Below, one piece after another: positions 186 to 7,312 of a stretch of DNA of 8,995 nucleotides. The position numbers and the translations under genes are program-made. Every line of letters starts with the position of its first letter. The first letter of the stretch is position 1. The stretch comes from Methanomassiliicoccales archaeon (GTDB lineage Archaea > Thermoplasmatota > Thermoplasmata > Methanomassiliicoccales > UBA472), in the NCBI GenBank assembly GCA_013329565.1, contig DUJZ01000158.1, forward strand, positions 1 through 8,995, in the 5' to 3' direction. The notes below the pieces were generated by a model that saw only the letters and a program-made list of their open reading frames with translations, had not been told where the DNA came from and did not search any database.

Positions 186-728
186 TCAGGAAATGTCGAA
201 GCCGACCAATATGCTGGCCAACTTGGGATCGTCCTCAAGCCCGTAATGGTTCTTGATGATCAGGTCTCCCAGTGGTGATGGGCTGCAGGAGACGATGTTG
301 GTGGCGCCAGGCACCTGCTCCAGCTCCGGGAACGAAACGGGTGGCATGAGAAAGAACTCCTTGGTCTTCGGGACCTTGTCGGTGAACACCACGAAATCAT
401 CGCCTAGCCAGCATATGTTATCCATCTCTTTGTAATGGGTATGCTGCCCCGGAAGGATCTCGGTCCCGATGACCAGGTCCGAGTCGCCCATCATGAGCAC
501 GGTCGGCTCCGGCGGAGGACGGAACCGGGCGTCCTTGATCACGCAGATCACATGCTGCCTCCTCAGGCACTGGATGACTCCCTCGTTCACCACGTCCAGA
601 CCGATCTGGGACTTGATGCTGTCCTCGATCCTCTGGACCGCGATGATAACTTCCGGGCTGAGCAGGAAGGCCAGGCGGGTGCCGGTCATTCCCTTGATGA
701 TCTCGACCGCTCTCTCCTCAGGTAGCAC
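186..728 (-). CDS. Unknown protein, paralog of the 6710-7312 gene
   Basis: This encodes 180 residues from a GTG start. An in-frame TAG lies two codons upstream, so the ORF cannot begin earlier; an ATG at residue 14 is the alternative. I do not recognise the family. It has no signal peptide or membrane segment and looks like a soluble alpha/beta protein. Residues 20-45 are probably helical, followed by beta-like stretches (VICVIKD, TVLMMGD, DFVVFTD) and a conserved C-terminal part with FFLMPP, FPELE and a final LVGFDIS. The same series of motifs appears in the gene at 6710-7312: VNxGV, RQxV, IGxxLP, DN, DFV, FLxPP, FPxL, VSxS, LVGxD. The two are therefore paralogs that flank the whole cluster. 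It is divergent from the AhpD-like gene, about 80 bp away, and both may use the AT-rich box near 778-787. Function unknown. Confidence 0.8.
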   Translation of the reverse strand: MLPEERAVEIIKGMTGTRLAFLLSPEVIIAVQRIEDSIKSQIGLDVVNEGVIQCLRRQHVICVIKDARFRPPPEPTVLMMGDSDLVIGTEILPGQHTHYKEMDNICWLGDDFVVFTDKVPKTKEFFLMPPVSFPELEQVPGATNIVSCSPSPLGDLIIKNHYGLEDDPKLASILVGFDIS

Positions 729-777
729 GCGGCCCTAAACGGCATGGTGTTAGAAAAAGGTTGTTTCCCGGCAATCG

Positions 778-787
778 TTAATATCTC
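778..787. promoter_or_regulatory. TATA-like box between divergent genes
   Basis: GTTAATATCT is the only AT-rich hexamer-scale element in the 79-bp gap between the gene ending (5') at 728 and the ATG at 808. On the + strand it lies about 25 bp before the ATG at 808, which predicts an essentially leaderless mRNA, and no Shine-Dalgarno sequence is seen there. On the - strand the same box would give a leader of roughly 30 nt before the GTG at 728. Assigned from position and composition only. Confidence 0.45.
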
Positions 788-807
788 CGCTGAGCGATTC
801 ATGGTCC

Positions 808-6105: not shown

Positions 6106-6107
6106 AC

Positions 6108-6713
6108 TTGAAGGACTCCATCGGCCGCAAGACGCGCTTCGTGGAGTGCCGCGAGGCCCGGGGAATGGGGGTCGGGGGGAGCCTGGCGCAGAGAGCTACG
6201 ATCTCCGACAGCGGACGGGACGTGGTGGCTGTGGCCATGGGTCCCGGGAAGCGTCACATCACCAAGCCGGTGTGCGAGATCACTTACGGTCTACGAGAGG
6301 AAGGCATCGATACCTCCGTCATCGTCATCACCGCCGGTTCCGGCGTGCCTTCCGATGCGGTGGACGTCTCCACCAGTTCCTTGTTCGGTCTGGAACCCAT
6401 CGAGGTTGCCCGCATCCAGCAGTTCAAGGTGGCGCTCATCCACCTGGGCAACGTTCGAAACCACATCATCTACAAGGCTCGATTGATCCTGAGGAACGTT
6501 GACCTGCCAGCAGTCATATGCTGCCAGGCCCCGGTGGACTTCGAGGACTTCGCCCGCATCGGTTGCAAAACGCGCCTGGTGATGCCCAAGGACGAGGACA
6601 TCAACACCAAGGGCACCATCATGGAGATAGTCACCGGCGTGGTACGGGGCACCTCCGTCAGCCAGGTGAAGCTGGACGAGATAGTGGCCAAGGTAAAGCG
6701 GACCATGCCTTAA
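6108..6713 (+). CDS. mcrC: Methyl-coenzyme M reductase operon protein C
   Basis: This encodes 201 residues from a TTG start two bases after the atwA stop. A GAGGT about seven bases upstream (6096-6100) serves as ribosome binding site, and no nearby ATG would keep the conserved N-terminus. The family hallmarks are strong: ECREARGMGVGG (13-24), AQRATISD, GPGKRHITKPVCEITYGLRE (45-64), AGSGVP (76-81), HLGNVRNHIIYKARLILRN (112-130) and CQAPVDFEDFARIG (139-152). McrC is a conserved protein of methanogens and methane-oxidising archaea. It is found in the complex that activates methyl-coenzyme M reductase together with component A2 and several methanogenesis marker proteins. No mcrA, mcrB, mcrD or mcrG is present here, so in this organism mcrC is linked to atwA, not evidently to the mcr structural operon. 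Its TAA overlaps the stop of the opposing gene in TTAA. Confidence 0.95.
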   Translation: MKDSIGRKTRFVECREARGMGVGGSLAQRATISDSGRDVVAVAMGPGKRHITKPVCEITYGLREEGIDTSVIVITAGSGVPSDAVDVSTSSLFGLEPIEVARIQQFKVALIHLGNVRNHIIYKARLILRNVDLPAVICCQAPVDFEDFARIGCKTRLVMPKDEDINTKGTIMEIVTGVVRGTSVSQVKLDEIVAKVKRTMP

Positions 6714-7312
6714 AGGTCGTAACCTACCAGATGCGTCCAGCACTTGGTGTTTCCGTATCCGAGCCGATCGCGTATGTAATCATCGGACACCGTGGATATG
6801 CTGGCGCTGACCAGTCTTTTTATCTCCGGCATATCGTCCAGGGGGGGAAAGGGCATGGGCGGGATCAGGAAGTACGGCTCGCCAACGATGTCCACGTCAC
6901 CGTAGAGAACGAAGTCCTCGCTGAGCAGATAGGCGTTATCCCTCGTCTCCACCTCTTCCCGCTTTCCCTCAGGGAGATACTCCCCGATCACCTGACCCTT
7001 CTGGTCCACGATGTGCACCAGGTGCTCCTGGGTATACAGCATCTCCACCTTCGGCCTGGCCACGATGACGAAAACCTCCTGCCTGGTCAGGACGTCCCAT
7101 ACTCCGGTGTTCACGAATGCCATAAGGCCGCCGACGGCACCGTTACTCTCCGCGTCACGTTCGCGCTGCTCGATCTCCTGGCGGAAGTCCTGGTCGAGGT
7201 ACTCCAGGGCTTCGATACCCTTCAATGCCAGTATCCTCTCCCGCACCGCCGAGCGGATGGTGTTCCTCTCCACGCTGAGCTTTACCGCTTTATGGCTATT
7301 CAAAACTTGCAT
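6710..7312 (-). CDS. Unknown protein, paralog of the 186-728 gene, between mcrC and mmp3
   Basis: This encodes 200 residues from the ATG at 7312; a TTG at 7333 would add seven (GPRSAA-type) residues. I do not recognise the family. The N-terminal third is a long charged amphipathic helix region (about residues 13-60, ending DFRQEIEQRERDAES). Next come an alpha/beta core (VFVIVARP, LVHIVDQKG, VIGEYLP) and a C-terminal segment with DFVLYGD, YFLIPPMPFPPLDDMP, VSAS and the terminal LVGYDL. These motifs occur in the same order in the protein at 186-728. There is no signal peptide, no membrane segment and only one cysteine. It lies between mcrC (stop codons overlapping in TTAA) and the divergent marker-3 gene, so a link to Mcr activation is possible but rests only on position. 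Confidence 0.78.
   Translation of the reverse strand: MQVLNSHKAVKLSVERNTIRSAVRERILALKGIEALEYLDQDFRQEIEQRERDAESNGAVGGLMAFVNTGVWDVLTRQEVFVIVARPKVEMLYTQEHLVHIVDQKGQVIGEYLPEGKREEVETRDNAYLLSEDFVLYGDVDIVGEPYFLIPPMPFPPLDDMPEIKRLVSASISTVSDDYIRDRLGYGNTKCWTHLVGYDL

Follow-up and report, generated by a model that had tools for sequence, protein, structure and literature searches.

A Paralogous Protein Pair Without a Recognized Family, Tied by Position to Methyl-Coenzyme M Reductase Activation Genes in Methanomassiliicoccales

Introduction

What do two paralogous genes without a recognized family do among the genes for activation of methyl-coenzyme M reductase (MCR)? The question is raised by a stretch of 8,995 nucleotides from a Methanomassiliicoccales archaeon (GenBank assembly GCA_013329565.1, contig DUJZ01000158.1, positions 1 to 8,995 of the forward strand), hereafter called the window, in which two minus-strand genes, here named A (186..728) and B (6710..7312), are encoded together with atwA, mcrC, and mmp3. 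The reductive activation of MCR in living cells is still an open question: no activity was seen when dithiothreitol took the place of Ti(III) citrate, and efficient activation might need additional factors (Ramirez-Amador et al., 2025; PMC12176620).

A preliminary description of the window proposed that A and B are either two subunits of a heteromer or an unrecognized accessory factor for MCR activation, and our analysis partly supports it. The pair has no family in the searched libraries, and in one order its genomic position links it strongly to MCR activation genes; the family itself is wider than methanogenesis. The reading we favor, put forward tentatively as plausible if short of probable, is that A serves MCR as a redox-linked accessory factor, with B as its diverged partner.

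Paralogy and Family Searches

A encodes a 180-amino-acid protein of the MCR-locus subfamily, with a GTG start at 728, and B a paralogue of 200 amino acids. For B the ATG at 7312 is supported as the start, with a relative (P0033) opening MQIMNSRK at the same point; the mechanical open reading frame extends further, to a TTG at 7333. BLASTP aligned A and B with 41/135 identities (30%; 59.7 bits, E 5e-16). Their Smith-Waterman score was 146, compared with a mean of 30.4, a standard deviation of 4.9, and a maximum of 71 over 2000 shuffles, and a comparison of the two family profiles gave a probability of 99.8 and an E value of 2.9e-30 over 178 columns. Searched against their own, incomplete, genome, A and B each match solely themselves and the other (E ≤ 1). 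The two genes are true paralogues, as the preliminary description had it. Both proteins show the motif series of that description in its stated sequence, with a single departure: A reads IGTEILP in place of IGxxLP.

The view that A and B belong to no recognized family also held: scans against Pfam and NCBIfam returned no family match, the best row having an E value of 0.2. The NCBIfam and Pfam models for Mmp17, Mmp7, Mmp3, McrC, component A2, and DUF2098 did not match either protein up to E 1. Mmp17 is encoded apart in the source genome (contig C102), which together with the absence of any model match rules out A or B as Mmp17 or another marker. Weak Pfam rows among 43 family members were taken as chance; they comprise DcpS_C in four members (best E 0.036), HIT in one (E 0.053), and eight others (best E 0.054). 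Profile searches of solved structures with two queries, labeled A1 and A2, each gave a single row that was attributed to chance (E 1.7 and 0.71).

For the predicted structural models of both A and B, the best rows were proteins of the nitroreductase fold (iodotyrosine deiodinase and the C-terminal domain of FbiB). The resemblance is weak; Foldseek gave no match in the PDB at E ≤ 0.001 for either model, and the nitroreductase sequence model matched none of the 43 family members at E ≤ 1. That A and B are nitroreductase-fold flavoproteins, which would pass electrons to the activation complex, is very unlikely in our judgment.

Genomic Context

The neighbors that the preliminary description had named atwA, mcrC, and marker 3 are confirmed by models that all score above their cut-offs: AtwA, or component A2 (4483..6105, plus strand; TIGR03269, 746 bits), McrC (6108..6713, plus; TIGR03264, 294 bits), and Mmp3 (7429..8994, plus, running past the right end of the window; TIGR03268, 432 bits). 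B is convergent with mcrC, their stop codons overlapping in the TTAA at 6710-6713, and divergent from mmp3 across an intergenic region at 7313..7428. Another intergenic region (729..807) parts A from a divergent gene for an AhpD/CMD-family protein (808..1101, plus; PF02627, E 2e-19; TIGR00778 above cut-off), which carries a CxxCxxxH motif (CDECFRLH). The mcrBDGA genes of the source genome (1.42 Mb, 83% complete) are on a separate contig, C118.

Loci anchored on A came from the best 80 of 119 contigs of the species collection, with many stretches cut by contig ends. Loci were counted, not genomes, and some contigs are doubled (for example L115/L045, L074/L157, L071/L158, and L151/L167), which puts some duplicates into the counts of orientation, spacing, AhpD motif, and residue rows. 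Genes of the MCR locus accompany A in 72 of the 80 loci; to this extent the expectation of homologues beside atwA, mcrC, or mmp3 was borne out, and it fails for extra copies that lie away from mcr. Within the fetched stretches DUF2111 was found in 64 loci, McrA and AtwA in 59 each, McrC in 51, Mmp3 in 47, DUF6951 in 45, the AhpD-like gene in 32, and B in 8. Wherever A falls in one fetched locus with mcrA the two genes are convergent (72/72), and with atwA they are on opposite strands (72/72). The placing of A in the MCR locus is wide but not exceptionless.

All 46 loci with both A and the AhpD-like gene have them in divergent orientation (48–132 bp apart in 42), and 41 of the 46 AhpD-like homologues retain the CxxCxxxH motif. 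One locus (L054) has an AhpD-like stretch broken by two stops, through decay or sequencing error, beside an open A frame.

B lies between mcrC and mmp3 here, as first described, and in 20 of the 64 loci that have both McrC and Mmp3. It is always on the opposite strand, with gaps of 689–1257 bp between the two flanking genes, and it diverges from mmp3 in 20 of 20 loci at a spacing of 46–232 bp. In the other 44 loci, without B, the gap is 12–40 bp in 43 and 289 bp in one.

Neighbor pairs of the MCR locus were also compared between a genome of family f2 (G048) and partners from three families, a comparison in which B maps onto A; the pairs remained within 10 kb of each other in 13/15 (G015), 16/16 (G043), and 14/16 (G023) cases. 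Here f2 denotes Methanomethylophilaceae, by tree placement with named loci.

Distribution of the Family

A joint A and B family profile matched 58 of 389 Thermoplasmatota genomes, 57 in Methanomassiliicoccales and one outside (G285); no Methanomassiliicoccales genome was among the 20 listed of the 331 misses. All 55 genomes of this sample with an McrA match (E ≤ 1e-10) were also positive for the profile. Two genomes of the order (G003 and G346) gave no McrA match, probably owing to assembly gaps, since McrC is present in both. G285 matched neither McrA nor McrC. Among relatives of the source genome the family was found in 60 of 61, the sole miss being 73% complete. With the 57 genomes of the phylum sample and these 60 of 61 relatives, the family can be taken as universal in the Methanomassiliicoccales sampled.

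B is distributed differently. Outside f2, 43 of 45 relatives gave matches of B strength (E below 1e-20 with the B query, counted from the search table with B-like extra copies included), and the two that did not are genomes of 63% and 73% completeness. Inside f2 none of the 16 genomes gave such a match, although all 16 carry the family. A therefore does not depend on B. This bears on the idea that the two are obligate subunits of one heteromer, which would fit with their sharing a locus in most families and with the replacement in B of many A-invariant positions alongside an invariant stretch of its own. In f2 genomes, though, A stays in the MCR locus without any B-type match (as seen in the three f2 loci first mapped), and where B is missing McrC and Mmp3 close up to 12–40 bp in all but one of the 44 loci, where the gap is 289 bp. 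A heteromer, one of the two proposals of the preliminary description, is not needed to account for the pair, and we regard it as most improbable.

The order to which G285 belongs has an A-type gene in 18 of 21 genomes and an McrA match in 0 of 21, McrA having been tested in those 21 genomes. The check proposed in the preliminary description, whether homologues occur only in mcr-bearing genomes, thus fails. A marker protein would be absent from non-methanogens; A-type genes are present in this McrA-less order. The family is wider than methanogenesis and not confined to methanogens, and it shows a limit of guilt by association.

The nearest outside relatives of A belong to a redox gene cluster of this order. 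Among 17 loci compared for neighbors, OsmC runs in the same direction as the A-type gene in 15, glutamate dehydrogenase does so in 14, and a thioredoxin-fold gene in 9; all three are absent from two loci, which belong to another family. These thiol-redox neighbors, together with the AhpD-family neighbor and its CxxCxxxH motif in the MCR locus, are the grounds for reading A as redox-linked. A further gene (L035:16250-17686, cluster d2) recurs in 11 of the 17 loci, some kilobases from the A-type gene; we take it to be MttB-like.

Conserved Residues and Phylogeny

Aligned family members were grouped by hidden Markov model scores and locus identifiers, the A group including A-clade rows outside the MCR locus. 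The rows called McrA-less comprise the G285 protein itself and 120 database proteins that resemble it, McrA having been tested in the 21 genomes named above; database matches were the best 120 of 445 and the best 120 of 287. Of 100 A-clade rows of the methanogen order, 99 have Cys at position 148, where 94% of the 121 McrA-less rows have Ser (113 Ser and 7 Cys in the 120 database proteins). In the window this position lies within the SCSPSP motif of A (residues 147–152; 273..290, minus strand, coordinates by arithmetic from the sequence). This pattern suggests that Cys148 is a lineage-specific change in A of the methanogen order.

Residues K65, F69, R70, P72, T76, E90, F112, P129, F133, E135, S147, S149, P150, D155, D166, and A171 are near-invariant in both the A and the McrA-less rows, and such a shared patch suggests a common core activity of A with and without mcr. 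Most B rows replace K65, F69, R70, T76, E90, E135, D166, and A171. F112, F133, S147, S149, and D155 are kept in B too, and B has its own invariant stretch, NGAxGGxM..NxGVW.

A tree of 53 rows chosen from the A, B, and McrA-less groups, with the f2 extra copies left out and the root not known, gave support of 100/100 for B, 99/97 for the McrA-less group, and 93/82 for A. The branch that parts A and the McrA-less proteins from B has 100/100 support, which places A nearer to the McrA-less proteins than to B. Either B is an older paralogue, or it is a fast-changing one.

Extra family copies bear on another explanation, namely that A and B handle nickel or F430 as McrD-like chaperones, which would assist in loading or positioning the nickel cofactor. 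MCR itself depends on nickel, and diverged f2 copies adjoin nikR in five loci (L141, L144, L146, L140, and L047). In more loci such copies are next to topA or close to it, and hypA and hypD are nearby in most; a nickel link of these diverged copies is possible. For A and B themselves we consider the explanation improbable: their alignments showed no conserved His/Cys cluster of the kind typical for nickel sites, the McrA-less order keeps A beside OsmC and glutamate dehydrogenase, and B-like extras lie elsewhere, near a prismane gene in some loci of family f6. A separate earlier tree was unsure about the f2 extras, which have long branches, and we claim no place for them.

Methyltransferase clusters were considered as a home for the extra copies of the order; none was recognized by eye among conserved neighbors, in a check limited to ten neighbor proteins and one of L050 that were put to Pfam or chosen for it. 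Tandem family copies were seen at L047:6211-7301, L136:6476-7814, and L140:6181-7356. In the search tables a single in-frame stop interrupts several family copies, most of them from f2; where such a stop is TAG, it could possibly be read as pyrrolysine.

Proposed Function

In the reading we favor, the MCR locus recruited A as an accessory protein with a link to redox chemistry. The intergenic regions shared by A with the AhpD-like gene and by B with mmp3 would mean co-expression. Together with the AhpD-like protein, A would sense or relay the redox state of thiols, and in this way might help MCR, or the machinery that activates it, to stay reduced or become reduced again. For B, a diverged paralogue, we predict a role alongside the McrC/Mmp3 activation complex, perhaps with co-regulation with mmp3; with about half of the A-invariant positions replaced, it would bind rather than catalyze.

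Several points weigh against this reading. The evidence that links A and B to MCR is indirect, the family exists in an order without an McrA match, and the redox idea stands on gene neighbors plus one residue. The AhpD-like gene, found in only 32 of the 80 A-anchored loci, is not an obligate partner of A. None of the locus genes is found in 8 of the 80 loci, bar a weak AtwA match in two, and in one genome (G026) A lies ~137 kb from mcrA on the same contig, B staying between mcrC and mmp3. Support for the A clade (93/82) is not full, and Methanomassiliicoccales genomes have extra family copies away from mcr, beside nikR/topA or a prismane gene. Gene order within one order can persist without functional linkage, and in our background control of other loci 2 of 6 pairs were linked, in a sample of only six pairs.

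Much of this would also suit a chance resident of the MCR locus without action on MCR: an ancient Thermoplasmata protein with a general redox or housekeeping role, of which B is a spare copy. The A-type genes beside OsmC, glutamate dehydrogenase, and thioredoxin-fold genes in an order without an McrA match (18/21 and 0/21, respectively), the eight loci without other locus genes, and the copies elsewhere all favor such a protein, and six control pairs are too few to set inherited gene order aside. The orientation of A to mcrA and to atwA, fixed in 72/72 loci each across six families, and the order-specific Cys148 speak against it, and we hold it to be doubtful, if of real weight.

A broader proposal goes beyond A as a redox-linked accessory factor: the MCR activation machinery would have in A a redox subunit specific to this lineage, distinguished by its fixed Cys and taken from a protein family that in McrA-less Thermoplasmata serves a thiol-redox gene cluster, and B would be a further paralogue turned docking subunit between McrC and Mmp3. 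We rate this as rather unlikely. If it is true, MCR activation in Methanomassiliicoccales uses components that are not known from other methanogens. A family in the MCR locus across a methanogen order in any case supplies concrete candidates and one residue, Cys148.

Other Features of the Window

The left edge of the window (1..99, plus strand) holds the 3′ end of a putative DUF2098-like gene, whose in-frame tail ISTITPSGGG* resembles the tail ISVVTPSGSG* of the gene adjoining mcrA in L050, a DUF2098 protein (PF09871, E 6e-17). Next to the AhpD-like gene is a gene for a DUF6951 protein of the conserved locus (1102..1443, minus; PF22263) with several conserved Cys residues (in DPGVCR, SDCP, and HSSCP). 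It occurs in 45 of the 80 A-anchored loci, has three matches in the source genome, and among 14 control genomes is matched only in Methanosarcina acetivorans. A KamA-family radical SAM protein of 609 amino acids follows (1582..3411, plus); an N-terminal stretch of ~190 amino acids precedes its KamA match, and it is found in 5 of the 80 loci only. The gene at 3408..4397 (minus) encodes another protein of the conserved locus, with helix-turn-helix, DUF4443, and DUF2111 domains by Pfam matches. Elsewhere, in L048 (4671-6541), two genes lie directly upstream of mcrB, presumably TfuA-like and YcaO-like.

Comparison With Known Systems

The MCR-associated cluster of this order has been described before, as 13 marker genes in ~16 kb in two species (Borrel et al., 2014; PMC4153887). 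The peptidyl-prolyl-isomerase-related protein of that study appears to be Mmp3, and the Mmp3 of the window also weakly matches the peptidyl-prolyl-isomerase Pfam family. In M. luminyensis and Candidatus (Ca.) M. intestinalis one accession number is free between McrC and this protein, and in Ca. M. alvus the two accessions are consecutive (PMC4153887). We infer that the skipped number would be B, which fits B's distribution. Our locus is the same ~16 kb cluster as in that core gene set; it differs in that Table 5 there appears to place nothing between McrC and the Mmp3-like protein, and the A/B family is not unique to methanogens. A literature search with five accession numbers of likely A and B genes found no paper, and DUF2098 is named together with methanogens in two.

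The nitroreductase fold compares with the predicted A and B models through weak top structural rows. The AhpD and OsmC thiol peroxidases are recurrent neighbors, the former as an AhpD-like gene of the MCR locus and the latter in loci of the McrA-less order, but they are partners by position only, and A and B are not members.

The closest comparison is with the MCR activation system itself, in which DUF2098 is bound by a loop of McrC and co-purifies with McrC in M. maripaludis (PMC12176620). The main text of that report does not contain the word Methanomassiliicoccales, and the report appears to make no mention of A or B. A and B match none of the families of the system, but they are encoded among its genes: atwA, mcrC, mmp3, and the DUF2098 gene (the last in L050).
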